Assembly (NCBI RefSeq): GCF_010692555.1
Contig: NZ_JAAHHG010000031.1
Span: forward strand, 1 to 50,263
DNA length: 50,263 nt
Direction: 5' to 3'
From: Okeania sp. SIO3B5
GTDB lineage: Bacteria > Cyanobacteriota > Cyanobacteriia > Cyanobacteriales > Microcoleaceae
Part shown: positions 1 to 46,247 of the stretch, one piece after another
How positions within the stretch are numbered: the first letter of the stretch is position 1
Layout of the letters: each line of letters begins with the position of its first letter
The notes under the pieces: generated by a model
Seen by the model: the letters and a program-made list of their open reading frames with translations, nothing else
The model's database searches: none
What the model was told of the DNA's origin: nothing
Made by a program: the position numbers and the translations under genes

Positions 1-45
<45 letters not shown>

Positions 46-530
46 GTTTGATGCTCTAACTTTTTTTCACAGTCTCTTGACTATGAGGGTTTTTTCTTGT
101 ATCAAGGATTTAGAACTACGTTCTTGATCCTAATTAAATATTTTCAACAAGGAATGTAGTGCTGTTAAACTTTCAAACTATTGAGTTTTCTAGGTTCTGG
201 CGTTGGTTGGAGGTGTTTACCTCTCTCCCTGCGCATTTACTAATCTAGCAACTCTATCTTTGCCTGTCAACCCCTTTGAGCAAACTTTTTTATTTTTAGT
301 AGGGAGATGATGCTTGTATCTCATATATGGTAGGGCTTTTGAGGCTTGAAATTTTATAGAAAAAATATTAATCTCCATGAAAATAATCTAATTCAAAATG
401 AAGATGCCCCTAGTTTGAGAGTGAGATGTAAATTTTTAAGGCCGTATGCTGTACAAGGTATTCTGAGAATATATAGTTAAAGTTTCGGGGCAAAATTAAA
501 TGTCCAAAACATACTATTAAGTTTAATGCT
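46..530. other. rRNA leader and intergenic region
   Basis: Positions 46-235 are the presumed 16S leader. They include a nested inverted repeat at about 97-133 (ATCAAG pairing with CTTGAT, and AGAAC with GTTCT inside), which could be an rRNA processing stem. Positions 271-530 are AT-rich with no gene I can support. No convincing promoter was found for the rightward TRAP genes. Confidence 0.5.
242..270 (-). promoter_or_regulatory. sigma-70-type promoter of the rRNA operon
   Basis: On the minus strand there is a perfect -35 box TTGACA (265-270), a 17-nt spacer and a -10 box TAGATT (242-247). It points at the 16S gene and predicts a start near 235, giving a leader of about 190 nt. The position and consensus quality fit a strong rRNA promoter. 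Confidence 0.75.
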
Positions 531-545
531 ATGGGAGGACTCGTA

Positions 546-1100
546 TTGAAAAGACTCCTACGTCTATCACGGATGATTGATGGATTGAATGAATTAATTG
601 GACGTCTTACTTATTGGTTAGTTTTACTGATGGTCTTAGTTGGTGTTTGGAATGTTATTGGACGCTATCTAGGTAGGAGTGTTGGTCAAAATTTAACTTC
701 CAACGCTTTTATTGAAATTCAGTGGTATATTTTTGATCTGGTTTTTCTTCTTGGTGGAGCTTATTGTGTCAAACATAATCAACACGTTCGTGTAGATATT
801 TTTTATACTCGCTGGAGTCCCAAAAGAAAAGCTCTAGCTAACTTGATTGGTACGATATTATTTTTAATTCCCTTCAGTCTCATTGTGATTTTTGTTTCTT
901 GGGGAGCTGTTTTAAATTCATGGGCTATTCTTGAAACTTCTCCCGATCCTGGTGGGTTACCTCGTTACCCAATTAAGACAATGATTATTGTTAGCTTTGT
1001 ATTGTTGTTTCTCCAAGGAATTTCTGAAGCAATTAAAAATTTTGCGGTTTTTACAGGTCAACTACCAGGTGATAAGGAGTTTTATGAATCTGAGTATTGA
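546..1100 (+). CDS. TRAP transporter small permease subunit (DctQ family)
   Basis: This is the small membrane subunit of a tripartite ATP-independent periplasmic transporter, which imports organic acids or similar solutes using an ion gradient. The ~184 residues contain four hydrophobic segments and the family-typical 'W.V.GRY' region after TM1 (WNVIGRYLGRSV) and an 'E.QWY.F...FLLG' block. I favour the TTG start at 546: GGGAGGA at 533-539 lies 6 nt upstream, whereas the ATG at 531 overlaps that Shine-Dalgarno and has none of its own. The gene overlaps the large permease by 17 bp, indicating translational coupling. The substrate is unknown because no DctP binding protein is adjacent. Confidence 0.88.
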   Translation: MKRLLRLSRMIDGLNELIGRLTYWLVLLMVLVGVWNVIGRYLGRSVGQNLTSNAFIEIQWYIFDLVFLLGGAYCVKHNQHVRVDIFYTRWSPKRKALANLIGTILFLIPFSLIVIFVSWGAVLNSWAILETSPDPGGLPRYPIKTMIIVSFVLLFLQGISEAIKNFAVFTGQLPGDKEFYESEY

Positions 1101-2427
1101 ATATGAATGGCTAGGCCCATTAATGTTTGCAGGAGCACTGGTGCTACTGTCTATTGGTTACCCTGTAGCTTTTTCTCTGGGGGGTGTGGCAATAATTTTT
1201 GGACTAATAGGTATTGCTTTAAAAGTGTTTGACCCTATATTTCTGACTGCAATGCCCCAAAGAATTTTTGGAATCATGGCCAATTATACTTTGTTGGCTA
1301 TACCCTACTTTATATTTATGGGAGCAATGTTGGAAAAATCCGGTATTGCAGAACAACTTCTGGAAACAATGGGGATATTATTTGGCAGAATAAGGGGTGG
1401 TTTAGCTCTAGCTGTTGTTATTGTGGGCGCTCTTTTGGCTGCGACGACAGGTGTTGTTGCTGCTACAGTAGTGGCAATGGGATTAATTTCTTTACCTATT
1501 ATGTTGCGGTATGGATATAATAGAGAGCTGGCTACGGGTGTTATTGTTGCATCGGGAACTTTGGGGCAAATTATACCTCCTAGTGTAGTTTTGGTAGTAT
1601 TGGCTGACCAACTCGGAATTTCTGTTGGCGATCTATTTATTGGCTCTATTTTGCCTGGTTTACTAATGGCAGGAACATTTGCTCTTCATATTCTGGTTGT
1701 TGCTTTTATTAGGCCAGACTTGGCTCCTGCTTTACCCGCAGAGGTGCGCAGTCTTAGAGGTAAAGATTTGGGCATCAGGGTGCTAAAAGTAATGATTCCA
1801 CCATTATTATTAATTTTACTGGTTCTGGGTAGTATATTTTTTGGTATTGCTACGCCGACTGAAGCTGGAGCGGTAGGGTGTGTGGGGGCGATCGCTCTGG
1901 CTCTGGCCAATGGTCGATTTAGTTGGACTTCTTTGAGAAAGGTATGTGACGTGACTCTCAGGACAACTACGATGGTGATGTTTATACTTCTTGGGTCAAC
2001 TGCTTTTAGTTTGGTTTTCCGGGGGGTTGAAGGCGATCGCTTTATGTTTGATTTACTTTCTAATCTTCCTGGGGGAACAACAGGCTTTTTATTTGTCAGT
2101 ATGACAATTGTTTTTTTGCTTGGTTTTTTTATCGACTTTTTTGAGATTGCTTTTATTGTTGTACCTTTATTTGTACCTGTTGCTCAACAACTTGGAATTG
2201 ATTTGGTTTGGTACGGCGTAATATTGGGGGCTAATCTTCAAGCATCTTTTTTAACGCCTCCCTTTGGTTTTGCACTATTTTATCTAAGGGGTGTTGCACC
2301 TCCAGAGGTTACTACTGGTGAAATTTATAGAGGTGCTATTCAATTTATATTACTTCAGTTATTGGTATTAGTTATAATTATTTCTTTTCCTGGTATTGTT
2401 GATTTTTTGCCATCATTAAGTAGATAA
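1084..2427 (+). CDS. TRAP transporter large permease subunit (DctM family)
   Basis: This is the ~447-residue, roughly 12-TM transport subunit of the TRAP system. Family features visible are the N-terminal 'L.IGYPVAFSLGG' block, 'LLAIPYFIFMGAMLE', 'SGTLGQIIPPSVVLVVLAD', 'TPTEAGAVG' and the C-terminal 'ANLQASFLTPPFGFALFYL'. The reading frame is open from 988, but the ATG at 1084 is preceded by AAGGAG and gives the normal family length; an upstream start would read back through the DctQ gene in another frame. It forms a two-gene operon with the small permease. No DctP gene lies on either side, so the binding protein must be encoded elsewhere. Confidence 0.93.
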   Translation: MNLSIEYEWLGPLMFAGALVLLSIGYPVAFSLGGVAIIFGLIGIALKVFDPIFLTAMPQRIFGIMANYTLLAIPYFIFMGAMLEKSGIAEQLLETMGILFGRIRGGLALAVVIVGALLAATTGVVAATVVAMGLISLPIMLRYGYNRELATGVIVASGTLGQIIPPSVVLVVLADQLGISVGDLFIGSILPGLLMAGTFALHILVVAFIRPDLAPALPAEVRSLRGKDLGIRVLKVMIPPLLLILLVLGSIFFGIATPTEAGAVGCVGAIALALANGRFSWTSLRKVCDVTLRTTTMVMFILLGSTAFSLVFRGVEGDRFMFDLLSNLPGGTTGFLFVSMTIVFLLGFFIDFFEIAFIVVPLFVPVAQQLGIDLVWYGVILGANLQASFLTPPFGFALFYLRGVAPPEVTTGEIYRGAIQFILLQLLVLVIIISFPGIVDFLPSLSR

Positions 2428-2530
2428 AGGTTTAAGCTCAAAATCTTGCTCGGAGATGTATACAAGTTTTCAACTCTTTTAAGCAACTTTCAAGGTCCAG
2501 CACAAAATAATTAAAAATCTTTCTCAACTA

Positions 2531-2560
2531 TTGCATAAACCAAGGAGTTTAATATATACT
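2531..2560 (+). promoter_or_regulatory. putative promoter of the repeat-peptide gene
   Basis: TTGCAT (2531-2536), an 18-nt spacer and TATACT (2555-2560) resemble a sigma-70 promoter. A 6-bp hairpin (AACTCC with GGAGTT, about 2568-2588) lies between it and the AAGGAAGG ribosome-binding site ahead of the ATG at 2617. Confidence 0.45.
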
Positions 2561-2616
2561 GATTTTTAACTCCAGTTCATAGGGAGTTATTCAGAACAAA
2601 TAAGGAAGGATAAAGT

Positions 2617-2808
2617 ATGTCACAGAGTTTTAATGTTCAGCAAGCTCGGCCTAGTAAAATTCAAATAGAAGTCACAGACATACCTGTGTTACAGGGAAAA
2701 AACTTGGTATCAGGATTAAACTTTGATGCAGATGGTGGTGACCGTAATTTTGATGCAGATGGTGGCGACCGTAATTTTGATGCAGATGGTGGTGACCGTC
2801 ATCATTAA
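2617..2808 (+). CDS. small peptide with three NFDADGGDR repeats, RiPP precursor candidate
   Basis: This is a 63-residue peptide with a strong Shine-Dalgarno (AAGGAAGG) 5-12 nt before the ATG. Residues 1-34 form a non-repetitive leader-like part (including KIQIEVTDIPVL). Residues 35-61 are three exact NFDADGGDR units encoded by 27-bp repeats (2719-2745, 2746-2772, 2773-2799), followed by HH and the stop. No signal peptide or TM segment is visible. The leader-plus-identical-cores layout is typical of multi-core ribosomal peptide precursors. An oxygenase of the Cupin_4 type and a [2Fe-2S] protein follow downstream. The Asp-rich unit also recalls Ca-binding DxDxDG loops, so a metal-binding role is an alternative. 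I do not recognise the family. Confidence 0.7.
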   Translation: MSQSFNVQQARPSKIQIEVTDIPVLQGKNLVSGLNFDADGGDRNFDADGGDRNFDADGGDRHH

Positions 2809-3082
2809 TAGTTAAGTATTCAAGTCTTTTAATTTTTGTTTTGAATATTTAGGGGTTAAGGCTTACCTATTTCCCTTATTTTAACTAGCCATGTAAGTCT
2901 TGAACTGGTGACAACTAAACAGAGCTAACGGTAAAAGCTTTACCCCTCGTTAATCAAAATATTTATAAGAATTGTTTTTCAAAATTATGTTTATTATATT
3001 TATATAGTCCAAGAAGTATTTACAGTCATTTCAGCTTAGATTGAGACAAGGGTTTCTTGCCACAGAAAGTTTTAATTTTTAT
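2809..3082 (+). other. intergenic, with possible terminator hairpin at 2926-2952
   Basis: No gene is visible. A hairpin at 2926-2952 pairs TAACG with CGTTA and GGTAAA with TTTACC. It is followed by AT-rich DNA but not by a clean T-run, so a terminator role is only possible. Confidence 0.3.
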
Positions 3083-3343
3083 CTCAACGTTGGTTGAAGA
3101 CCCGCCCTCTCCCTAAGGGAGAGCGTCGTATGGGAAAACCAATCAATAAGAGCGGTTCTTACAAGGGTATGCTATCCTAAATATACTTAGGCTGCTGGGC
3201 TAGCAGTTTCAGTCTGTGGAGCGACCGTAAGACCAGAAAGAGGTTTGGCCTCGGAGGCAGGTGCTACGAAGCAGAAAGTCCTGAGCCGCGAGGTTTAGGA
3301 ATCCCGCGTTGTCGCGCCATGCGCAACGTCGGGAGGATGTCAA
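3083..3343 (+). mobile_element. miniature IS605-type element, tnpB deleted, right-end RNA kept
   Basis: Both ends match the tnpB element at 42870-44318. The left end shares CTCAACGTTGGTTGAAGACC with the TTGGTT...AACCAA palindrome around an inner hairpin. The right part, from about 3200, shares CAGTCTGTGGAGCGAC and then the GGAATCCCGCG...GGGAGGATGTCAA tail, including the 3' end of the tnpB coding region. The ~1.1 kb in between is missing. It is an internal-deletion derivative of about 260 bp that still carries the presumed omega-RNA scaffold. It separates the repeat-peptide gene from the oxygenase gene. Confidence 0.8.
3298..3343 (+). ncRNA. presumed omega-RNA 3' stem (orphan copy)
   Basis: CCCGCGTTG...CAACGTCGGG can form the same terminal stem as the tnpB element's CCCGCGCTG...CAGCGTCGGG at 44273-44318. 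The C-G pair is replaced by T-A on both arms, so the stem is preserved. It ends in GGGAGGATGTCAA like the parent. Whether it is transcribed is not known. Confidence 0.55.
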
Positions 3344-3522
3344 TTGAAATGACTATACTAGAGTAAACTCAATAGAAGAGACCAAGCAATTTTTTTGTAT
3401 ACATAGTATTCATAGTTTCAAAATCTCTTGAAGCACCAAGAGCAACAAGTAAAAAAAGTTATTGGTGAGTACTTAGGATTACAACGTATTCCAGCTTTCT
3501 CGATCTGCTAAAAAATACAAAA
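3344..3522. other. intergenic, nothing recognised
   Basis: This is AT-rich DNA with no supported ORF or repeat. Confidence 0.5.
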
Positions 3523-3655
3523 CCAATTTTAGGTAGCTTTATAATATGAGAAAGTTAAGAATTCTATAAAAAACCATGTTAAAAAATTAATAGAAAAAAA
3601 TCTCAATTATGTTAAACCTAAAGCATTTAATACAGCTCTATCAAAGAATACAGAA
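3523..3655 (+). repeat. tandem duplicate of the oxygenase gene's 5' region
   Basis: The segment containing TTTTAGGTAGCTTTATAATAT and the first codons (ATG at 3609, reading MLNLKHLIQ) is repeated at about 3656-3790, where the ATG at 3756 reads MFNLRYLIE. The offset is 133 bp at the TATAAT-like box and 147 bp at the ATG, so small indels have accumulated. The 5' copy dies after 18 codons and is a relic. The TTTATAATAT box is kept in both copies and may be the promoter. Confidence 0.7.
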
Positions 3656-3755
3656 TCAATTTTAGGTAGCTTTATAATATAAGAAAGTTAAGAATTCTGG
3701 AAAAACCCATTTTATGAAAATATTATTGAAAATTTAATAGGAAAAATTATCAATT

Positions 3756-4916
3756 ATGTTTAACCTAAGGTATTTAATAGAGCCATTACCTCAAGAAGAA
3801 TTTCTGGAAAACAACTGGACAAAGAAAGCGATCGCCATCTCTAGTAAAGGACAAAAAAACTTTACAGACTTATTTTCATGGGACAAACTCAACCATCTAT
3901 TGAACTTCCATCAAATAGAATATCCCGATCTACGTCTTGCATTTGATGGAAAAGTTCTAGAGGCAAAAGAGAATAGAAATCTTACCCAATGGTGTCAGAA
4001 AGGTGGGACATTAATCATAGACCAAATTCATCAAAGGGTTCCAGAGGTTTCAATTTTGGCCTCAAAACTTAGTTATGAGTTAGGATATCCTACTCAGGTC
4101 AATGCTTACTGTTCCTGGTCTAGTAAACAAGGTTTCTCTCGCCACTACGATACTCACGATGTATTTATTCTGCAAGTAGAAGGAAGCAAACAATGGTATG
4201 TCTACACCGACACTTTAAAATACCCATTGCCAAACCAGAAATCATCCTCTCTTGAACCACCAGAAGAAGAAGCTTATTTAAGTTGTATTTTGCATCCAGG
4301 AGATGTACTTTATATACCTCGCGGACATTGGCATTACGCAGCGACAAAAGAAGAACCATCTATTCATCTAACTTTAGGTATTCACAGTAAAACAGGTATC
4401 GATCTATTGGAATGGTTAATCTGTAAATTACAACACAGAGAAGAGTGGAGAGAAAGTCTACCTTTAAGAATAGATAATAATTCTTTTCATCTAAGTCTTG
4501 AAACCTTAATTCAAGACTTAGAACAGTATATAAATAATCATAATATTAGCGAAGAATATTACAGCTATTTAGATAGTTTGGCAAAACCTATCTATCAATA
4601 TGTTTTGCCTTATCAAGCTGGATTTAATATCTTTGATAATGGCATTGAAACTAAGTTTAAAACACCTCAATTTCAACGTTTACAAATTTCTAAAATAGCC
4701 GAGGGAGAAGATGAATATAAAATAATAGTTTCTGGTAAAGAAGTATCTATTAAAGGAGTGCCAGAAAAATTCGTTAAAAATTTATTTAGTCGAGAAACAT
4801 TTACGGGAAAAGATGTCATAAATTTACTCCCAGATTATGATTGGGAAATAGATATTATGCCAATGTTATCGAAGTTAGTTAATGAAAGAGTTATTTTTGT
4901 AGAACCTGGAGTTTAA
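3756..4916 (+). CDS. Cupin_4/JmjC-like Fe(II), 2-oxoglutarate oxygenase (ROXA/YcfD-like)
   Basis: This 386-residue protein has the layout of ribosomal-oxygenase-type cupins, which hydroxylate Arg, His or Asp side chains in proteins. The iron-binding HxD is H130-Y131-D132 within FSRHYDTHDVFILQVEG, which closely follows the YcfD pattern. The distal histidine is H193 (or H191) in GDVLYIPRGHWHYA. The C-terminal ~150 residues form a helical/winged-helix tail as in this family. The gene would originally have ended 3 bp before the Suc/Fer start codon, in a tight operon; a 300-bp tandem duplication now separates them. The peptide at 2617, with Asp- and Arg-containing repeats, is a plausible substrate, by inference from proximity only. 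Confidence 0.85.
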   Translation: MFNLRYLIEPLPQEEFLENNWTKKAIAISSKGQKNFTDLFSWDKLNHLLNFHQIEYPDLRLAFDGKVLEAKENRNLTQWCQKGGTLIIDQIHQRVPEVSILASKLSYELGYPTQVNAYCSWSSKQGFSRHYDTHDVFILQVEGSKQWYVYTDTLKYPLPNQKSSSLEPPEEEAYLSCILHPGDVLYIPRGHWHYAATKEEPSIHLTLGIHSKTGIDLLEWLICKLQHREEWRESLPLRIDNNSFHLSLETLIQDLEQYINNHNISEEYYSYLDSLAKPIYQYVLPYQAGFNIFDNGIETKFKTPQFQRLQISKIAEGEDEYKIIVSGKEVSIKGVPEKFVKNLFSRETFTGKDVINLLPDYDWEIDIMPMLSKLVNERVIFVEPGV

Positions 4917-4928
4917 ACATGAATACAT

Positions 4929-5218
4929 ATATTTGATAATGCCATGGAAACTAAGTTTAAAATACCTCAATTTCAACGTTTACAGATTTCTAAAATACCT
5001 GAGGGAGAAGATGAATATGAAATCATAGTTTCTTGTAAATAAATATCTATTAAAGCAGTGTCATAAAAGTTTGTTGAAAATTTATTTAGTCGAGAAACAT
5101 TTACGGGAAAAGATGTCATAAATTTACTCCCAGATTATGATTGGGAAATAGATATTATGCCAATGTTATCGAAGTTAGTTAATGAAAGAGTTATTTTTGT
5201 AGAACCTGGAGTTTAAAC
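4929..5218 (+). pseudogene. duplicated 3' end of the oxygenase gene
   Basis: This is a tandem copy, offset exactly 300 bp (100 codons), of the last ~97 codons of the upstream gene. It contains internal stops, for example TGTAAATAA near 5035-5043, and has no start. Positions 5077-5228 are identical to 4777-4928 over 152 bp, whereas the first half has diverged by many substitutions. The identical part includes the last codons, the stop and the first bases of the next gene, so the next gene keeps its native upstream sequence. Confidence 0.9.
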
Positions 5219-6226
5219 ATGAATACATTTTTTTGCGCTGATGCTTGCCGACAAGCAAATGAAGATATTATTGGAAGTGGTACAAACTATTCAATATATG
5301 TGTTGATAGAGTGCCCTTACCCTTGGGATTATAATGCTTATGAGTCTCGTTATCTACCAGAAAATTTAGAGATTTTGATGAGAGAAGTTAGTAAATCTCA
5401 ACTTTCAGTCAGATTTTTACTAATTACTCAAAATCAAAATCAAAGACAAAATAATAGAAAAATTTTAATCTATGAAAAAGAGCAAAGTTCATTTGTAAGT
5501 GGTTATAAAAAATATGAATTTGATGTAGATAGTCCTGAAAAAATAGCTCCTGTTATTCAAAAATATTTAGCGGGGGATAATTTAGATATTAATATTCAAG
5601 AAAATCAAATTAGGGATATGTTAGTTTGTACTCACGGTAGCCATGACAAGTGCTGTGCTAGATATGGTAATCCGTTTTATATGCAAGCTAAAAAAACTAT
5701 TTCCGAATTGGGTGTAAAAAATACTAGAATTTGGAAAGCAAGTCACTTTGGTGGCCATAGATTCGCACCTACTATGATTGATTTTCCTGATGGTAGATAT
5801 TATGGGTTACTTGATGGGGAATCTTTTAAGTCTATTTTGCTACGAACGGGCAATATTAAATTATTAGGTGGTGTATATCGAGGTTGGGGTATTTTACCAA
5901 CTTGTATTCAGGCATTGGAAAGGGAACTAATGTTCCGCCATGGTTGGGAATGGTTTGAGTGTAAGGTTAATTTTTTAGATATTGATATAAATTCTGATAG
6001 AACGTTAATTAATACTGAATTAGCTGTAGTTAAACCTGATGGTTCTAGATACACTTGTCAAGGTAGGTTAGTTAAAGATGAAAGTAAAACTATCCAACTT
6101 AAAGGTTCCTGTGATGCTACTCAGAATTCTGAATTTATTAAGTATTATGTTAGTCATATCAGCTTCAAAATTGAACGGAAAATTATTGAGAAAGTTGTTG
6201 TCAATCCTCACAAAAAAGCAAGTTAA
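5219..6226 (+). CDS. Suc/Fer-like (sucrase/ferredoxin-like, thioredoxin-fold) protein
   Basis: This 335-residue protein belongs to the Suc_Fer-like family (PF06999), which resembles thioredoxin-like [2Fe-2S] ferredoxins. The hallmark is C137-T-H139-G-S-H142-D-K-C145-C146-A, followed by 'KASHFGGHRFAPTMIDFPDGRYYG', where further His/Gly residues are conserved. Early cysteines (FFCADACR) are also present. The biochemical role of the family is poorly defined; electron transfer is likely. It immediately followed the oxygenase gene before the duplication (stop and ATG 3 bp apart), so supplying electrons to a modification reaction is a reasonable inference. Its 3' end overlaps the convergent GNAT gene by 26 bp. 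Confidence 0.85.
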   Translation: MNTFFCADACRQANEDIIGSGTNYSIYVLIECPYPWDYNAYESRYLPENLEILMREVSKSQLSVRFLLITQNQNQRQNNRKILIYEKEQSSFVSGYKKYEFDVDSPEKIAPVIQKYLAGDNLDINIQENQIRDMLVCTHGSHDKCCARYGNPFYMQAKKTISELGVKNTRIWKASHFGGHRFAPTMIDFPDGRYYGLLDGESFKSILLRTGNIKLLGGVYRGWGILPTCIQALERELMFRHGWEWFECKVNFLDIDINSDRTLINTELAVVKPDGSRYTCQGRLVKDESKTIQLKGSCDATQNSEFIKYYVSHISFKIERKIIEKVVVNPHKKAS

Positions 6227-6650
6227 AGTACATAAATTGATGGGGTATGTCTAAATATTGAAATGGCTCGCCAGTTTCGATAAAACCTATTTTTCTATAG
6301 AACTGAGAAGCACTGATACGAGTCATTACTCTCAAATGTTTTAGTTGTTTTTCCTTGGCAATTTCAATGGTTTTTTTGATTAAAGCTGTTCCTATTCCCT
6401 GAGATTGAAATTCAGGTAAAACAGAAATATATGCAATACTTCCTAATTCTTTAGATATTTCCCGGAGTCTAGCTGACCCAATGATTTGTTGCTCGCAAAC
6501 AGCAATAATATGTAAGGCACTATCTTCATATTCATCTTTTTCTGTTCCTATCTCCATATTTATTGGTGCTCTTAATACTAACCAACGTTGATAGTACATT
6601 GCATCTTTTTCTTGTTGGTTTTGAATTAAGCGAATCTGAAATTCTCTCAT
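6201..6650 (-). CDS. GNAT family N-acetyltransferase
   Basis: This is a 149-residue single-domain acetyltransferase that would transfer an acetyl group from acetyl-CoA to an unknown amine. Motif A is visible as 'ISVLPEFQSQGIGTALIKKTIEIAKEKQ', carrying the Q/R-x-x-G-x-G/A pyrophosphate-binding loop (QSQGIGTA). The 'FYRKIGFIETGEPF' motif-B region follows. The gene is convergent with the Suc/Fer gene and overlaps it by 26 bp. An element with GGGTGCATCTCA ends is inserted 18 bp upstream of its start codon and probably affects its promoter. Confidence 0.88.
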   Translation of the reverse strand: MREFQIRLIQNQQEKDAMYYQRWLVLRAPINMEIGTEKDEYEDSALHIIAVCEQQIIGSARLREISKELGSIAYISVLPEFQSQGIGTALIKKTIEIAKEKQLKHLRVMTRISASQFYRKIGFIETGEPFQYLDIPHQFMYFNLLFCED

Positions 6651-6668
6651 TTTTCAAGCATCTTTAAT

Positions 6669-6953
6669 GGGTGCATTTCAATTTTAAATAAAGCAAAAAA
6701 ATTATCGCTTTTAGGCAACAGGGAACAGGTCTTTTCAGTTATCAGTTATCAGTTATCAGTACCTCTGTCTGTTTGCGCAGCATCACCATAGGAAAGCAAA
6801 GTGAATTGAAAATACTGAATCGAATATTTTTTTCATCCCCTTAAAAGGGGAGGCTTTAGACCCTATTTTTTGGTGACAGGAAATAGAGAATAGGGAATAG
6901 AAAATAGGGAATATATAGGAAAAAAGTATTTTTGCAAATATTGAGATGCACCC
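6669..6953. mobile_element. MITE with GGGTGCATYTCA inverted ends and 8-bp duplication
   Basis: The left end GGGTGCATTTCAATTTT and the right end ATTGAGATGCACCC are inverted. They are flanked by an identical 8-bp TCTTTAAT (6661-6668 and 6954-6961). A second copy lies at 34600-34711 in the opposite orientation with its own 8-bp duplication. This 285-bp copy has been enlarged by other repeats (CAGTTATCAGTTATCAGTTA at about 6738-6760 and an AAAAGGGGAGGCTTTA repeat near 6840). I cannot assign a parent transposase family. Confidence 0.85.
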
Positions 6954-6961
6954 TCTTTAAT

Positions 6962-7403
6962 TATGGCTTACCGATTAAATTTCAAACCATTGACTGAGAT
7001 TGACTAAAGCCTTTTTTAAGTTGAAAAAAGGTAAGCATTCAGCTGTCAGCTATCAGTTTTATTAGCTTGAATTGTATAGGTTAAAAACTCAAAACAAGTC
7101 TTTCTTGTGTTTCAATTTATGGGGGGAAAATGTAGTATGAAGTTAAACGAATTTTTACTTCATTCATTAAAAAGCTGTTTGCGCAGCATTCCGCAGTTAC
7201 GAAAAAAGTACCAGGTTTTCAGTCGAAAACCATCAAAAAGTTAGCATAAAAGGCATAATAATTGCAGAAAAATCACTCTAACAATTGTTACAACTATCTC
7301 CTAATTAAATGCTATTCTCCATTCCTCCTAACTACTCTCTACTCCCCCACTCCTGAAAAAGACTTTTTCAGCAAACCCTAATTAAAGGCGATCGCCATTC
7401 TGA
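6962..7403. repeat. intergenic repeat region
   Basis: The segment from about 6967 (CCGATTAAATTTCAAACCATTG) to about 7250 resembles the repeats at 37122 and 50056 that start with GGACTTGCTGATTAAAT. It is interrupted by a GTAAGCATTCAGCTGTCAGC end at about 7032 and a 'CTGTTTGCGCAGCATTCCGC' piece near 7172. No gene was seen. Confidence 0.5.
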
Positions 7404-8123
7404 TTAAGACCAAGCAGGATGAGATAATATAGAAGCAAACATTCGCACCCCACGCAGTAAATTGGATAGAGGTAAATGTCCTTTTGGTGCATTCAAATTC
7501 CAAGTAAATTCATTTGGATATCTCGTCCAACTATTGCCATTTTTCCAGCCAATTTTTGGCAGCAACTTATCCCAATTTTTATTTACGCTTAACCACATTT
7601 CTCTCTGTACAGAATAGCCAAATTTACCTTCTGAATAAACTAACCACATAGTATTAATAGTTTGCAAATCTGCAATGGGAATACTATCTACTTCTGAAAA
7701 ATAAAGCCATTTTCTTTGTATAGCTGCCTCTCCTGCCAATTCACACAATTTTTGCATAGTTAATTTGTCAGCTTCTAAAAAATCCTGATGAGCAAGTTTT
7801 ACTTGTATATGACTATAGTCAACATTAGATTCTGATTTTATCGGTACAACTCCCAGAGGAAAGTTTTTGTTTATAAATTCATCAATTTTCGATGAATCTA
7901 TTTGACGTAAAACTTGGTATATTTTTCCTGAAATAATAGTAGGTGAATCTGATTTTTGCCCTTGTAAAAATTCCATTAATATTTGCCAACCATCATTACC
8001 TGTTTGTGCCAAAATAGGAATTGCCTGTAGCTGTTTTTTTTCAGAACCAGATTCTAATTGAGACTTTAGTTCAGCTATATTAGATGAAGCGTTTGTTGTA
8101 GAATTAATCCTTGATTCTGTCAT
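7404..8123 (-). CDS. gun4: Gun4-like tetrapyrrole-binding regulator of Mg-chelatase
   Basis: Gun4 binds protoporphyrin IX and Mg-protoporphyrin and stimulates Mg-chelatase at the first committed step of chlorophyll synthesis. This 239-residue protein matches the cyanobacterial two-domain form: an N-terminal helical bundle (about residues 10-95) and a GUN4 core (about 100-230). The core begins with 'LAHQDFLEADKLTMQKLCELAG' and contains 'IPIADLQTINTMWLVYSEGKFGYSVQ' and 'SWTRYPNEFTWNLNAPKGHLP'. Length is typical. The gene stands alone between repeat-filled spacers. Multi-domain proteins with only a GUN4 domain exist, but the length here supports true Gun4. Confidence 0.88.
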   Translation of the reverse strand: MTESRINSTTNASSNIAELKSQLESGSEKKQLQAIPILAQTGNDGWQILMEFLQGQKSDSPTIISGKIYQVLRQIDSSKIDEFINKNFPLGVVPIKSESNVDYSHIQVKLAHQDFLEADKLTMQKLCELAGEAAIQRKWLYFSEVDSIPIADLQTINTMWLVYSEGKFGYSVQREMWLSVNKNWDKLLPKIGWKNGNSWTRYPNEFTWNLNAPKGHLPLSNLLRGVRMFASILSHPAWS

Positions 8124-8163
8124 AAAATTACTGTGTGTTTCAGCTTTTGAAGTAATTTGTAAT

Positions 8164-8353
8164 TTACCGAATAATTAAGGTTTAAAGTCTCTTCCTTATA
8201 AAGAAAAAAAGCGGTCGATGGATGGCGTTTTGCTCCGCAAAATATAAAGCGGAGCGGCTCTGTCAAGAGCGGGTCTCCTCGCCATATCCCATCGACCAAA
8301 AGAAGAAAAAAATTTTCCTTTTAGTCAATTTTATTCTTGGAAAGAAGAGGTAA
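8164..8353 (-). repeat. intergenic repeat family with TTACC/GGTAA ends, carrying a nested palindrome
   Basis: The element runs from TTTACCG to AGAGGTAA and belongs to a family also found at 11381, 13410, 32830, 34576 and 49956. Inside sits a palindrome from GGTCGATGG to CCCATCGACC (about 8214-8298) that also occurs in the 11381 and 13410 copies. Confidence 0.65.
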
Positions 8354-8370
8354 TTATTAATTGTTGAAAA

Positions 8371-8877
8371 CTATTTATTTTGTAAAATACGATTAATAAT
8401 TGCAGTAGTGGAAGTCGAAACTTCTATTTGAACTAAAGAAATTTTACCACCATATTCCATAACTTTTGGTGCTTCTGGTAATGTTTCAACCGAATAGTCC
8501 CCACCTTTAACATAGACATCAGGTTTCAGCCGTTCTATAAGATGAGTAGCAGTCGCTTCATCAAACATTACTACTCCGTCCACTGGTTTCAGAGCGACTA
8601 AAACTTCTGCCCGTTGGTCTTGGGGAATAATTGGCCTCACAGGAGACCCCGATGGTTGTGGCTTAATTGTTTGTACAGATCGGTCGCTATTTAACCCTAC
8701 TATTAGCGAGCGTCCCAAAGATTTAGCTGCCCATAAATAGCGAATATGTCCTGCATGAAGTAGATCGAAGCATCCATTTGTAAATACTAAAGGTCTCCAA
8801 TAAGTAGGTTGAGAATTGATTGTCTGTTCTAGTTCAATTAAACTATATAAACCAGAAATTAGTTTTTGGGAGTCCAT
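8371..8877 (-). CDS. rfaE2: D-glycero-beta-D-manno-heptose 1-phosphate adenylyltransferase (RfaE domain II)
   Basis: This cytidylyltransferase-like nucleotidyltransferase transfers AMP from ATP to heptose 1-phosphate, giving ADP-heptose for LPS or S-layer glycans. The 168-residue length matches a stand-alone domain II (HldC-type) with no kinase domain. The signature is 'FTNGCFDLLHAGHIRYL' with the HxGH-type nucleotide-binding motif, then 'LIVGLNSDRSV', 'DGVVMFDEATATHLIERLKPDVYVKGGDY' and the C-terminal 'VSTSTTAIINRI', which corresponds to the ISTSxxI motif. It is on the same strand as gun4 and the response regulator but separated by repeats. Confidence 0.92.
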   Translation of the reverse strand: MDSQKLISGLYSLIELEQTINSQPTYWRPLVFTNGCFDLLHAGHIRYLWAAKSLGRSLIVGLNSDRSVQTIKPQPSGSPVRPIIPQDQRAEVLVALKPVDGVVMFDEATATHLIERLKPDVYVKGGDYSVETLPEAPKVMEYGGKISLVQIEVSTSTTAIINRILQNK

Positions 8878-8893
8878 TCTTTAATATTTATCT

Positions 8894-8966
8894 TTGATCA
8901 AAATAATTGGGTCGCGCAACCCCGCCTTTTAAGGCCAAATATTTTTGGAGCCTTGCTCAAATCCCC
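8894..8966 (-). repeat. structured intergenic repeat, second copy at 42699-42772
   Basis: The reverse complement of this stretch matches 42699-42772. Differences are compensatory: GAGC-loop-GCTC keeps its stem while the loop changes from AAG to TTC, and GCCTTAAAAGGC becomes CGCTTTAAAAAGCG. It is followed by four TTCTGAC heptads (8982-9010). Confidence 0.65.
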
Positions 8967-9012
8967 GTTAAAAAAATAACTTCTGACTTCTGACTTCTGA
9001 CTTCTGACTTCG

Positions 9013-39213: not shown

Positions 39214-40566
39214 ATTTTTTCTACTCTCCTAACGATAAAATTTAGTCAGCACACCCGATAATTTATAGCAGTTTTCATTAAAAGATTTTGCCTTAAAGGC
39301 AGAAGGCAGAGGGCAGAAGGCAGAAGGCAGAAGGAAAAGAAAGGTTCAAAGGGTAATGATTTTTGTTATAACAGATTATATGGGCACTATATAACCTATT
39401 TGCGTAGTACTATAAAAAGGTGCTTTAGAAGAGCTTAATTGACATAATAATAATTTTTGACTTTTGACTTTGAACTTTTGACTTAAAAAAGGTGCTTACA
39501 ACAAGTTGCACTTTAATGAGGTACACCCGTCGCGGGCAAGATGCCCGCACTTGCATTCATTTAATTGTTAATCTTTGTACTTCATATACTAGGAATTCGC
39601 TGTAATTGACATAATAATAATTTTTAACTTTTAACTTTTGACTGTTGACTTTTGACTTAAAAAAGGTGCTTTAGAAAAGCTTAATTGACATAATAATAAT
39701 TTTTGACTTTTGACTTTTGACTTTTGACTTGATAAATTTTTGACTTTTGACTTAAAAAAGGTGCTTACAACAAGTTGCACTTTAATGAGGTACACCCGTC
39801 GCGGGCAAGATGCCCGCACTTGCATTCATTTAATTGTTAATCTTTGTACTTCATATACTAGGAATTCGCTGTAATTGACATAATAATAATTTTTGACTTT
39901 TGACTTTGAACTTGATAAAATTTTGACTTTTGACTTTTGACTTTTGACTTGATAATTTTTGACTTTTAACTTTTGACTTAAAAAAGGTGCTTACAACAAG
40001 TTGCACTTTAATGAGGTACACCCGTCGCGGGCAAGATGCCCGCACTTGCATTCATTTAATTGTTAATCTTTGTACTTCATATACTAGGAATTCGCTGTAA
40101 TTGACATAATAATAATTTTTGACTTTTGACTTTTAACTTGATAAATTTTTGACTTTTGACTTTTGACTTTTGACTTGATAAAATTTTGACTTTTGACTTT
40201 TGACTTGATAAAATTTTGACTTTTGACTTAAGAAAGGTGCTTACAACAGACTCAACTTTAATGAGGTACACCCGTCGCGGGCAAGATGCCCGCACTTGCA
40301 TTCATTTAATTGTTAATCTTTGTACTTCATATACTAGGAATTCGCTGTAATTGACATAATCATAATTTTTAACTTTTAACTTTTGACTTTTGACTTTTGA
40401 CTTAAAAAAGGTGCTTTAGAAAAGCTTAATTGACATAATAATAATTTTTGACTTTTGACTTTTAACTTGATAAATTTTTGACTTTTGACTTTTAACTTTT
40501 AACTTGATAAATTTTTGACTTTTGACTTTTGACTTTTGACTTGATAATTTTTGACTTTTGACTTAA
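39214..40566. repeat. higher-order tandem array of TTTTGACT heptads and a unique block
   Basis: A ~225-270 bp unit is repeated about four times. Each unit has AATTGACATAATAATAATTT, variable numbers of GACTTTT heptads, 'GGTGCTTACAACAAGTTGCA', and a GTACACCCGTCGCGGGCAAG palindrome (starts at 39521, 39790, 40016, 40266). Then follow 'GAATTCGCTGT' and the next unit. The open frames across it are repeat artefacts. At 39266 is half of a TATAGCAGTTTTCA element. Confidence 0.9.
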
Positions 40567-42468
40567 TCACTCCTGTTGCCAAATTTTAATTGTATTATCA
40601 CTACTACCACTAGCTAAACTCTTTCCGTCCTGAGAAAAAGTAACAGAATTAACATATTTAGAATGACCTTCTAAATTAGCAATTTGCTGGCCTGTTTCCC
40701 AATGCCAAATCTTAATAGTTTCATCCTCACTACCACTAGCAATAATATCTCCTTGAGGACTAAAAGCTATGGCACAAATATCTTTTGAATGTCCCTCCAA
40801 AGTCTTTAATATTTCACCTTGCTCTATTTGCCAAATTTTAATATTGCGATCGCGGCCGCCACTAACTAAAGTTTTACCATCACAGCTAAAAGCAACCGCA
40901 TAAATATAATGTACTCCCTGATAATAATTGCATAGAGTCTGAACAGCATTACCTAAATTTAAATCCCATAATTTAATCGTATTATCTTCACTTCCGCTCG
41001 CCAAAGTTTTACCATCAGGACTAAAAGCAACCGCACGCACTGGACGTGAATGCCCAGTCAAAGTCATTATCACCTTCCCATAGTTAGAGTCATAAATATC
41101 GTCCCCAAGTTGCCAAAGTTTAACATCATTATCCTTACTTGCACTAGCCAAAATTTTGCCATCCGGACTGAAAGCGATCGCCGTTACTCCCTTAGAATGA
41201 CCAAAATATTGCCCCTGACTCCAGTCACCAAGAATACAAAGAAGTTTTCCTGTCTCAACTTCCCAAAGTCTAATAGTTTTGTCATCACTCCCACTAGCTA
41301 AAATTTTGCCATCCCGACTAAAAGCAACAGAGTTGACATAACCAGAATGCCCAAACATAGTCAATATTTCTCTGCCACTATCTACTTCCCACAACTTAAT
41401 AGTTTCATCCTCACTCCCACTCGCTACAATATTGTCATCAGGACTAAAAGCAACAGAGCAAACCCATTTTTGATGACTGGTGAGAGTATGTAGACATTTC
41501 CAAGTTTGAGTTGGTAGAGGTTCAGGTGTAACCTCCGGTGTTTGGATAGCAGTTTTATCTTGAATACGAGTCAAATTAACTTGAGTATTAGCATTTAAAA
41601 TTTTGATGACTTCATCAACAGACTGATAGCGACGGTTAATAGCATTTTCCACCAGTTTATCTAAAACATAACCCAACTGTTCGCTCACAGAATTACTGTT
41701 TAAATAACGTCGCCATACCCAATTACCCTCACCCACATCAAATAAATCAAAAGGGGAAATGTTGGTCAAAAGATGTAAGCAAGTTACCCCCAAACTATAT
41801 AAGTCACTAGCAAATACTGCTTTACCTCGGCTTTGTTCGGGGGGAGTATATTCCGGAGAGCCAATAGTAGTACCTGTTTTCAACAGTGCCGTACCAATAG
41901 CATATTTGGCAGCACCAAAATCTACTAATACTAATTGACTGTCACTGTTTTGACGACGAATAATATTGTCTGGTTTGATGTCGCGGTGAATAACGTTGTG
42001 AGAGTGGATAAATTGCAGGACTGGCAGTAAATTATTCAGTAACGCTTTAATTTTCTCTTCATTGTAAGGCCCTTCCACTGCCAGAGCTTGGCCTAAATTT
42101 TGTCCGTCGATGAATTCTTGCACTAAGTATTGTCGCCCATCCTGGGTGAAGTGGGCCATTAGTTCGGGGATTTGGGAATGTCTGCCCAATTCATCTAATC
42201 TTGTAGCTTCTTTTTCAAAGAGTTCGGCAGCTTTGCTAATATTGTTTGTGCCCTGGGATGCTGGAAAAAATTGTTTAATTACGCAATAGGGTTTGGAGGG
42301 TTTATCTTCGTCGATAGCTAAGAATGTTCTGCCAAAACCTCCTTGTCCAATGAGGTTAAGGGGACGATAGCGGTCTTTCAGTAGTAGTTTTGAGCCACAG
42401 TTTTGACAATATATGTTCGAGTCTGGGTTTTGGGGAATTTGACAATTGGGGTTGAGGCAATGACTCAT
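40567..42468 (-). CDS. Ser/Thr protein kinase-WD40 fusion
   Basis: This 633-residue protein starts at MSHCLNPNC (ATG at 42466-42468) by alignment to its paralogue; an upstream in-frame ATG (42519) lies in MITE DNA. It has an N-terminal zinc ribbon ('CLNPNC', 'CQNC'), then a canonical Hanks-type kinase with GQGGFG, 'CVIKQFF', 'HRDIKPDNII', 'LVDFGAAK' and the 'GSPEYTPPEQ' P+1 region. Seven WD40 repeats follow from about 340 ('SVAFSPDDNIVASGSEDETI'). Such cyanobacterial proteins are signalling hubs whose targets are mostly unknown. A family A MITE abuts the start codon, so the native Shine-Dalgarno and promoter have been displaced. Confidence 0.93.
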   Translation of the reverse strand: MSHCLNPNCQIPQNPDSNIYCQNCGSKLLLKDRYRPLNLIGQGGFGRTFLAIDEDKPSKPYCVIKQFFPASQGTNNISKAAELFEKEATRLDELGRHSQIPELMAHFTQDGRQYLVQEFIDGQNLGQALAVEGPYNEEKIKALLNNLLPVLQFIHSHNVIHRDIKPDNIIRRQNSDSQLVLVDFGAAKYAIGTALLKTGTTIGSPEYTPPEQSRGKAVFASDLYSLGVTCLHLLTNISPFDLFDVGEGNWVWRRYLNSNSVSEQLGYVLDKLVENAINRRYQSVDEVIKILNANTQVNLTRIQDKTAIQTPEVTPEPLPTQTWKCLHTLTSHQKWVCSVAFSPDDNIVASGSEDETIKLWEVDSGREILTMFGHSGYVNSVAFSRDGKILASGSDDKTIRLWEVETGKLLCILGDWSQGQYFGHSKGVTAIAFSPDGKILASASKDNDVKLWQLGDDIYDSNYGKVIMTLTGHSRPVRAVAFSPDGKTLASGSEDNTIKLWDLNLGNAVQTLCNYYQGVHYIYAVAFSCDGKTLVSGGRDRNIKIWQIEQGEILKTLEGHSKDICAIAFSPQGDIIASGSEDETIKIWHWETGQQIANLEGHSKYVNSVTFSQDGKSLASGSSDNTIKIWQQE

Positions 42469-45041: not shown

Positions 45042-46247
45042 CCCCCCCGCTGGGGTTAATGCGGATTAGTTGGAAACTTGAGATTTGACAATTGATCCGG
45101 TCGAAACAACCCCCCCGCTGGGGTTAATGCGGATTAGTTGGAAACAAGAAAATCAGAAGCATCACTTAGTGTTTGAAAATTCCCCCCCGCTGGGGTTAAT
45201 GCGGATTAGTTGGAAACGTTTGTATTATAATGCAAACAATGACCCCATAATGCCTCCCCCCCCCGCTGGGGTTAATGCGGATTAGTTGGAAACTTCTTGC
45301 CATTTTCAAGAGCCTGAATCGTTTCCTCAGACCCCCCCGCTGGGGTTAATGCGGATTAGTTGGAAACTGGAACTGTTTGGTTTTAATCTGATTAAATCTG
45401 AGACCCCCCCGCTGGGGTTAATGCGGATTAGTTGGAAACCAAATAATACCCCAAAGGTCATTGAAGACATAGCCACAACCCCCCCGCTGGGGTTAATGCG
45501 GATTAGTTGGAAACGATATTGATGATTGCGAACACCTTCTTCACATCTTGCCCCCCCGCTGGGGTTAATGCGGATTAGTTGGAAACAAAGATTTAGGAGA
45601 AAAGAAACCATAAAAAAGTAAGAAACCCCCCCGCTGGGGTTAATGCGGATTAGTTGGAAACCCGATATTGCCAATTTTTCTCTGGAGTCAATTTGTGGCC
45701 CCCCCGCTGGGGTTAATGCGGATTAGTTGGAAACGAAAGGTTTCCTGGGTGTAAAACATGTCTTGAACTTCCCCCCCCGCTGGGGTTAATGCGGATTAGT
45801 TGGAAACATCTTGGGGGACCTCATCCCCTGGCTTAAGCTTCCATACCCCCCCGCTGGGGTTAATGCGGATTAGTTGGAAACCCAAGGCTTTCAGATCTTG
45901 CCATGTTTTTGGAGGCGCCCCCCCGCTGGGGTTAATGCGGATTAGTTGGAAACAGGGGGGCATCGTCCTTCTTGATCAAGTTGATCGTCCCCCCCGCTGG
46001 GGTTAATGCGGATTAGTTGGAAACAATTATGCTATACACTACTAAAAGGAATAACATTGCCCCCCCCGCTGGGGTTAATGCGGATTAGTTGGAAACACAA
46101 GTTTTTCTCGCTTTTGCCATTTCTATTTTAGCGACCCCCCCGCTGGGGTTAATGCGGATTAGTTGGAAACCAAAAGCCCCTGAATGACCTATTTGGATCT
46201 GTAAATACAATCCCCCCCGCTGGGGTTAATGCGGATTAGTTGGAAAC
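45042..46247 (+). CRISPR. CRISPR array, 17 repeats and 16 spacers
   Basis: The 36-bp repeats are identical throughout, starting CCCCCCCGCTGGGGTTAATG and ending TTAGTTGGAAAC. They carry a CCCC-GCT-GGGG mini-stem. Spacers are 32-41 bp and all different. Repeats start at 45042, 45110, 45182, 45258, 45332, 45404, 45479, 45551, 45626, 45699, 45772, 45846, 45918, 45989, 46061, 46135 and 46212. The GGAAAC end suggests plus-strand transcription. Even the last repeat is perfect. There are no cas genes in the window, so subtype cannot be set; type I or III would be usual for this repeat form in cyanobacteria. Confidence 0.99.

Follow-up and report, generated by a model that had tools for sequence, protein, structure and literature searches.

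Known systems closest to the locus

JmjC-type Fe(II)/2-oxoglutarate (2OG) oxygenases have been described in pathways of ribosomally made, post-translationally modified peptides (RiPPs). BipG, the JmjC ornithine gamma-hydroxylase of the biphenomycin RiPPs, is encoded together with a precursor (PMC12707348). As described there, BipG is one of several tailoring enzymes, lies beside an MNIO and a B12-rSAM enzyme and acts on Orn, whereas the JmjC enzyme of the family presented here always accompanies the peptide and the peptide tail is Asp-rich; it is on that description that the two are set apart. Bregman et al. (2025; PMC12710340) report RRE-like domains fused to PF08007 in proteins of fish and algae, and note that bacterial homologues of these RRE-JmjC fusions, at about 30% identity, occur in RiPP-like contexts. 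The combination of PF08007 with a bbb-aaa domain, an order named in that work as a requirement for an RRE, is shared by the enzyme studied here; however, the paper reports no precursor peptides near the fish and algal proteins, whereas precursors are defined in the present family.

Other likenesses lie in the peptide or the chemistry. In corallotide, from Corallococcus, a single precursor likewise bears several copies of a motif, and a 2OG-Fe(II) oxygenase hydroxylates each of them; there, a graspetide synthetase cyclises the Lys beforehand and the target is the Lys delta-carbon, according to the description in PMC13097080. Asp beta-hydroxylation, at the residue proposed here, is attributed in RiPPs to SmaO, which is described with a different precursor, and beta-hydroxy-Asp to PesHI, which is described as an MNIO enzyme with another precursor (PMC13060819). 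The aKG-dependent macrocyclisation of Xia et al. (2025) appears to be the Cys-Tyr crosslink described in PMC12636437, whereas the peptide studied here has no Cys. Three elements are already known separately, namely a JmjC enzyme in a RiPP pathway (BipG), the RRE-JmjC fusion and the repeated hydroxylated core (corallotide); what is new is a RiPP family that has a precursor type of its own, for which no describing paper was found in the open-licence literature, a scope outside which most subscription papers fall.

The repeat-bearing peptide gene

The window, i.e., the whole 50,263-nt stretch of Okeania sp. SIO3B5 DNA that was analysed, encodes a small peptide (Table 1) that reads MSQSFNVQQARPSKIQIEVTDIPVLQGKNLVSGL, followed by three NFDADGGDR units and His-His. 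An earlier note on this DNA had described a 63-aa ORF with a 34-residue non-repetitive N-terminus, three exact units and a His-His end, all of which were confirmed; it counted one silent change among the 27-bp units, where there are in fact two silent sites (AAC/AAT and GGT/GGC). Tandem Repeats Finder reports the repeat at 2722-2799 with a period of 27 and 96% matches, and the best 54-nt stretch at this period holds 51 matches against a maximum of 32 in 200 first-order Markov simulations of the window.

Codon differences among homologues indicate that the peptide gene is under protein-level constraint, with a signal that weakens over longer distance. When the four Okeania copies of 63 codons are compared in all six pairs, which are not independent of each other, the codon differences total 40 synonymous and 12 non-synonymous, and the thirteen copies of the genus labelled g9 show 584 synonymous versus 453 non-synonymous differences, the reference being the 94:356 ratio given by all single-base changes to a g9 copy. 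Over the first 24 codons, comparison with seven Trichodesmium-type copies gave 3-5 synonymous and 6-11 non-synonymous differences.

Upstream, the promoter-like block contains a 16-mer, TTCTCAACTATTGCAT, that is identical in all 12 Okeania/Trichodesmium-type loci compared; the block is not among the promoters listed by a consensus promoter scan. A genome-wide regulon for the block was rejected, as its 24 matches were near chance (20 for a control pattern) and those elsewhere in the genome all carried 2-3 mismatches. A CAA-N3-TTG core like that of the block was also seen in several loci of other families. No plus-strand terminator was found between the peptide and JmjC genes, and Rfam at its gathering score gave no match in positions 1-9000, including positions 1-43, which look like the reverse complement of a 16S rRNA gene start. 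Elsewhere in the window, repeats of CCCCCCCGCTGGGGTTAATGCGGATTAGTTGGAAAC at 45331-46170 look like a CRISPR array by eye, long arrays of the heptamer TTTTGAC occupy 39618-40587, and other 7-bp tandem repeats are scattered throughout.

Table 1. Positions and descriptions of the features of the peptide-JmjC locus
Feature	Position	Strand	Description
Promoter-like block TTCTCAACTATTGCATAAA ... TATACT	2521..2560	+	5' of peptide gene; from alignment of loci
Shine-Dalgarno-like GGAAGGA	2604..2610	+	ends 6 nt 5' of peptide ATG
Precursor peptide gene	2617..2808	+	63 aa, ATG start, stop included
Leader, residues 1-34	2617..2718	+	non-repetitive; conserved part of 12-peptide alignment A1
Leader strand SKIQIEV, residues 13-19	2653..2673	+	like the strand in cytosolic and signal-peptide precursors
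Core unit 1 NFDADGGDR, residues 35-43	2719..2745	+	
Core unit 2 NFDADGGDR, residues 44-52	2746..2772	+	
Core unit 3 NFDADGGDR, residues 53-61	2773..2799	+	
C-terminal His-His	2800..2805	+	after core unit 3
JmjC_2 (Cupin_4) Fe(II)/2OG-type oxygenase	3756..4916	+	386 aa; ROX-like fold; PF08007 E 8.5e-28
C-terminal bbb-aaa domain, residues 309-376	4680..4883	+	RRE-like/winged-helix order; putative leader-binding domain
Suc_Fer-like protein (thioredoxin-like ferredoxin class)	5219..6226	+	335 aa; PF06999 E 1.4e-30
GNAT acetyltransferase	6201..6650	-	convergent; PF13673/PF00583; in 32/42 loci

Homologues of the peptide

A single-sequence search of 61 genomes of the family Microcoleaceae gave a match at E<=1 in 29. 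A profile (A1) was then built from 12 peptides chosen from this family and searched over 388 genomes of the order, where it found the peptide in 38 genomes at E<=1.1e-6 and in 50 at E<=0.1; the members of A1 score high by construction, and 11 of the 38 matching genomes lie outside the family and hence outside the profile. Conserved-leader homologues, as the earlier note had anticipated, therefore exist. All 12 A1 peptides share R11, S13-Q16, E18, V19, N29, L34 and N35, whereas the remoter peptides vary in the leader strand (SRISIEV, SPIEIEV, TKIQLEI; general form SKIQ[IV]EV). By the record titles of the matches, the peptide is known in Okeania and Trichodesmium, which are marine cyanobacteria. 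The plasmid collection gave no match, and among viral contigs the enzyme profile found nothing but one partial match of 28% identity.

The number of units also varies, a point that note had proposed to check. Three units are found in the four Okeania copies and at L040-L042, two at L057, L043, L089, L091-L093 and L101, and one in most of genus g9 (LNVDADGSDVTNE type), while four degenerate tails hold none by the strict pattern. The His-His end is common to most Okeania/Trichodesmium-type copies and was not seen in the other tails of the near tier. The family is one of a conserved leader and a variable tail with mostly 1-3 D-x-D-G units, and three identical cores are the Okeania state rather than the rule. 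A short ribosomal precursor with a conserved leader and a variable core, as is characteristic of RiPPs, is found here.

Linkage to the oxygenase and other neighbours

A JmjC_2 gene lies next to the peptide gene on the same strand in all 38 genomes with a peptide at E<=1.1e-6 (22, 11 and 5 loci drawn from three locus sets). One of these enzymes is a 223-aa fragment: in G368 the peptide stands beside a broken JmjC gene, and an intact paralogue without a peptide is on another contig. The gap between peptide and enzyme ranges from 60 to 1216 nt (41 loci). Approached from the enzyme, the best 42 places in the 388 genomes (E<=2.7e-183) have the peptide on their 5' side in 40 cases, the exceptions being G368:C409 and G003, whose contig starts 317 nt before the match. 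Three weak peptide matches (E 0.004, 0.017 and 0.069) likewise precede the enzyme; they come from four examined among the 16 places at E 1.1e-6 to 0.1, and the fourth, a leader match in G007 (E 0.036), was set aside as chance with no enzyme adjoining. A maturase gene linked to the precursor, a further hallmark of RiPPs, is thus present in 38/38 genomes, one maturase being broken, and the reading of the ORF as a RiPP precursor gains support from the conserved-leader homologues with the oxygenase gene next to them in all 38.

The linkage is not plain synteny because the upstream contexts differ between types: a DctQ/DctM TRAP transporter precedes the peptide in the Okeania/Trichodesmium type and other gene clusters do so in g9. 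Only the JmjC, Suc/Fer and GNAT clusters are common to the two, and no peptidase or exporter common to both was found among the few neighbours identified. By Pfam, the seven neighbour proteins encoded at 531-8877 are DctQ, DctM, JmjC_2, Suc_Fer, GNAT, GUN4 and a cytidylyltransferase. Assignment of the window locus to lanthipeptides, lasso peptides, graspetides or cyanobactins was rejected, since these seven include no LanM, Asn-synthase-like, ATP-grasp or cyanobactin enzyme.

The Suc/Fer gene, named in the earlier note with Cupin_4 as a neighbour whose conservation should be checked, lies directly 3' of the oxygenase in 21/22 loci and is present in 37/42 fetched loci, two of the five misses being contig ends (L041, L087). 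Its CTHG, HDxCC and HxGGHR motifs are invariant in 16/16 aligned proteins, and a comparison with PDB sequences gave nothing better than E 0.4. Work on Aim32, a protein of the same class, describes thioredoxin-like ferredoxins whose [2Fe-2S] cluster is bis-histidinyl (PMC8482512). The GNAT gene is a possible accessory gene. Among the next tier of 46 enzymes, Suc/Fer is found at 3 and GNAT at 2, so that both are almost confined to the near clade.

The main alternative offered in the earlier note was calcium binding. The DxDGxD of the peptide resembles calcium loops, and the tails are acidic; an unmodified small Ca2+-binding peptide with D-x-D-G-x-D loops, its oxygenase incidental or merely co-regulated, might therefore be imagined. 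We consider this very unlikely, as the enzyme follows the peptide in 38/38 genomes, also after quite different tails, and the calcium-loop spacing is lost in many relatives (DYDQTQ, QDVDQDQ, YDYSRN). In addition, neither Pfam nor NCBIfam gave a match for the window peptide at E<=1, EF-hand and other Ca-binding families included, and its profile search of the PDB gave a single 21-residue match (E 0.0057), to an autolytic lysozyme.

The JmjC oxygenase

The enzyme has the features of a JmjC_2/ROX-type oxygenase, namely a PF08007 domain together with HxD...H residues. PF08007 matches 25/25 members of the enzyme family, and H130, D132 and H193, which by analogy would form the metal triad, are invariant in 75/75 enzyme sequences. 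An AlphaFold2 model built with 75 sequences reached a mean pLDDT of 92.4 and a pTM of 0.87 (mean pLDDT 72.2 with 25 sequences). Its best PDB matches are NO66 (4ccn, E 1e-24, TM 0.70), MINA53 and YcfD, then 1vrb/YxbC and FIH. NO66, MINA53 and YcfD (4ccn, 4bxf, 4ccl) have the same overall fold by the model but only about 20% identity, and by their PDB titles they act on ribosomal proteins, whereas the enzymes of the window clade are linked to precursor genes.

In the model, residues 309-376 form three strands followed by three helices (block pLDDT 83-96), and the winged helices of ROX enzymes look alike. This RRE-like order is no proof of leader binding, because the top PDB matches, which are ribosomal oxygenases, have a similar winged-helix domain. 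The leader strand carries alternating hydrophobic residues (I15, I17, V19), a pattern that would fit strand addition to the RRE-like domain. Downstream, at 4920-5216, the 3' third of the JmjC gene is repeated as a decayed tandem copy (period 300, 93% over 4627-5235) that covers the C-terminal, RRE-like end; partial copies lie beside the gene in several relatives.

The wider enzyme clade

The enzyme profile matched 104/388 genomes at E<=1e-10, with at most four candidates scored per genome. In a draw of 386 genomes from the phylum, overlapping the earlier ones, the enzyme was found at E<=1e-60 in 17, all but one of the same order. Next-tier enzymes (330-590 bits) are in many cases preceded by other small proteins, often with a signal-like N-terminus, a strand (SPIEVEVVNL, NRLHVEIEDL, NRIQIDIEDL) and a repeat tail (DYDQTQDYDQTQ, QDVDQNQDV, YDYSRNYDYSRN).

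An ORF with such a strand and an Asp/Asn tail lies within 700 nt of 30/46 next-tier enzymes versus 10/536 control genes, i.e., the remaining genes of 150 aa or more at these loci; both this rule and a stricter tail rule were written after the loci had been seen, and related genomes are not independent. The stricter rule gave 28/44 next-tier enzymes versus 0/536 controls (8/862 with ORFs from 100 aa) and was loosened because it found a precursor at only 10/42 enzymes of the near tier, mostly because the precursors there are short or farther off. The looser rule finds one at 32/42 near enzymes within 700 nt and 41/42 within 1300 nt, although these loci were mostly fetched through the peptide and the enzyme-first figure is 40/42. 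Controls rise from 10/536 to 16/536 between the two distances; two of the hits at 700 nt are one genuine precursor (L113) counted again beside neighbouring ORFs, and five of those at 1300 nt are genuine precursors. The next tier stays at 30/46 at both distances, one of the 30 (L142) being of MIISDL type. Among the 16 enzymes that fail the rule, 3 have such a precursor by eye, 2 have a different Asp-rich type, and 11 have nothing recognisable on the 5' side, one of them at a contig end.

At L110, L125 and L142 a different Asp-rich small protein precedes the enzyme (MIISDLxYLEV or a neighbouring frame, a GG motif, DVDVDxD repeats); these proteins resemble bacteriocin-type precursors, L125 being judged from an overlapping frame only. 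L117, on contig C1303 of G057, is a second JmjC enzyme belonging to this clade and lies between a TPR/sulfotransferase-match gene and a TPR/glycosyltransferase gene, and no precursor was seen there. A GrrA/OscA triceptide identity was considered and rejected: one of eight precursors scanned (L127) weakly matches the GrrA/OscA1 cyclophane RiPPs over its signal and leader (TIGR04260, E 0.028), but at 15 bits, below the cut-off of 31; NCBIfam gave nothing for the window peptide at E<=1, and the seven window neighbours have no radical SAM match.

In a maximum-likelihood tree of 98 enzymes, the window enzyme falls in a 38-row group (support 99/99), in which 37 rows carry a precursor of cytosolic type. 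The precursor types cluster on the tree (15 changes versus 42.8 in shuffles, 0/200 as low), a result to which close copies contribute and for which the labels come from a crude rule and are in some cases wrong. The sister clade (10 rows, 9 loci) has RiPP-type genes at 6/6 loci put to Pfam, on chosen neighbours, with L151, L155 and L158 left out and L148 and L157 likewise. These are a LanM-type DUF4135 gene with LANC_like at L149 and L152 and without it at L153, Asn_synthase with an ABC transporter and, by eye, a lasso-like precursor at L150, TfuA at L156, and an MvdD-type pre-ATP-grasp (graspetide-type) protein at L154; LanC-like or lasso-like sequence had already been seen at L149, L152 and L150 when these three were chosen. 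At a nearer enzyme (L106) the directly adjoining gene is a ThcOx cyanobactin oxidase gene, and ten further neighbours, mostly from precursor-less loci, yielded this ThcOx as the one clear RiPP enzyme and an ABC transporter at L115. Given the RiPP genes of the sister clade and the ThcOx at L106, RiPP tailoring seems to be the business of the whole JmjC clade, albeit with gaps.

These surroundings bear on another idea, in which the JmjC protein acts on ribosomal proteins as a ribosomal oxygenase (ROX) and the peptide serves it as inhibitor, chaperone or decoy. That the nearest solved structures are ROX enzymes speaks for it, but the loci of sister enzymes are of lanthipeptide, lasso-like, TfuA and graspetide type, many precursors of the wider clade have a signal peptide (25/98 tree rows by the crude rule), and a decoy would leave the hypervariable repeat tails unexplained; we regard it as extremely improbable.

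The probable target residue

The earlier note suggested hydroxylation at Asp, Asn or Arg. For a comparison of these residues, 69 distinct tails were counted, with L142 dropped and L102, L107 and L129, read by eye, added. Asp is the sole residue present in all 69, which is partly built in because the tail rule asked for Asp plus Asn; Asn occurs in 66, Arg in 47, His in 35, Tyr in 26 and Cys in 2. D-x-D spacing, which was no part of the search rule, occurs 172 times versus 62.8 expected from shuffling within tails, and DD 17 times versus 64.6, related tails being non-independent. The pattern [FYVTL]-D-x-[DN] occurs 112 times versus 21.1 expected and in 57 of the tails, leaving 12 without it. FIH, a remote JmjC relative, is described as hydroxylating Asn in VNVN motifs (PMC9189129).

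Arg appears an unlikely target, because g9 tails (LNVDADGSDVTNE type) lack it and Asp alone is found in every tail. Asp is favoured because of its universality in the tails, its D-x-D spacing, and the likeness of the FIH VNVN motif to [FYVTL]-D-x-[DN]; by analogy with other RiPP Asp hydroxylases, it would be hydroxylated at the beta-carbon. At L114 and L116, signal-peptide precursors have tails of long Asn-Ser repeats ending in Asp, which suggests that Asn may also be a target.

The peptide may also be a RiPP precursor on which the JmjC enzyme performs other chemistry: it might hydroxylate Asn or His, form a crosslink or, helped by the Suc/Fer protein, turn hydroxy-Asp into another group. The JmjC_2 relatives NO66, MINA53 and YcfD are named His/Arg hydroxylases, BipG acts on Orn, an aKG enzyme is described as making a Cys-Tyr crosslink in a RiPP (PMC12636437), and the frequency of Asn together with the two Asn-Ser tails points the same way. 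The presence of Asp in every tail, against the patchier Cys, His, Arg and Tyr, argues for Asp, and we hold such other chemistry to be rather unlikely.

Proposed pathway and implications

The adjacent oxygenase probably hydroxylates the repeated aspartates, giving a modified peptide natural product. We consider it likely, from the sequence comparisons and the structure model, that the 63-aa ORF is a RiPP precursor whose leader docks on the RRE-like domain of the JmjC enzyme and whose core aspartates are hydroxylated at the JmjC centre. The leader strand SKIQIEVTDI would add as a beta-strand to the RRE-like C-terminal domain, and the tail, held in this way, would bring its three NFDADGGDR units within reach of the Fe(II)/2-oxoglutarate centre, which would hydroxylate the aspartates, the beta-carbon being the likeliest site. 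The same pathway may include the Suc/Fer-like protein and the GNAT acetyltransferase, any cleavage or export of the product is presumed, and metal binding as its final function is a guess.

More broadly and only tentatively, the family might represent a new cyanobacterial RiPP class, with a ROX-like JmjC enzyme as founding maturase and its winged helix as leader-binding domain, in which D-x-D tails would be hydroxylated into beta-hydroxyaspartate-rich metal-binding peptides by a cytosolic branch, which includes the window locus and its Suc/Fer partner, and a Sec-secreted branch; we lean somewhat against this wider proposal as a whole.

If the proposed pathway is true, it would give a RiPP family defined by a ribosomal-oxygenase-type maturase and a small gene set for peptide hydroxylation that is testable in E. 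coli, and would suggest a way for an oxygenase to read a leader through its winged-helix domain. A hydroxy-Asp-rich metal-binding peptide in Okeania and Trichodesmium would, as a speculation, bear on the handling of iron or other metals by these cyanobacteria.
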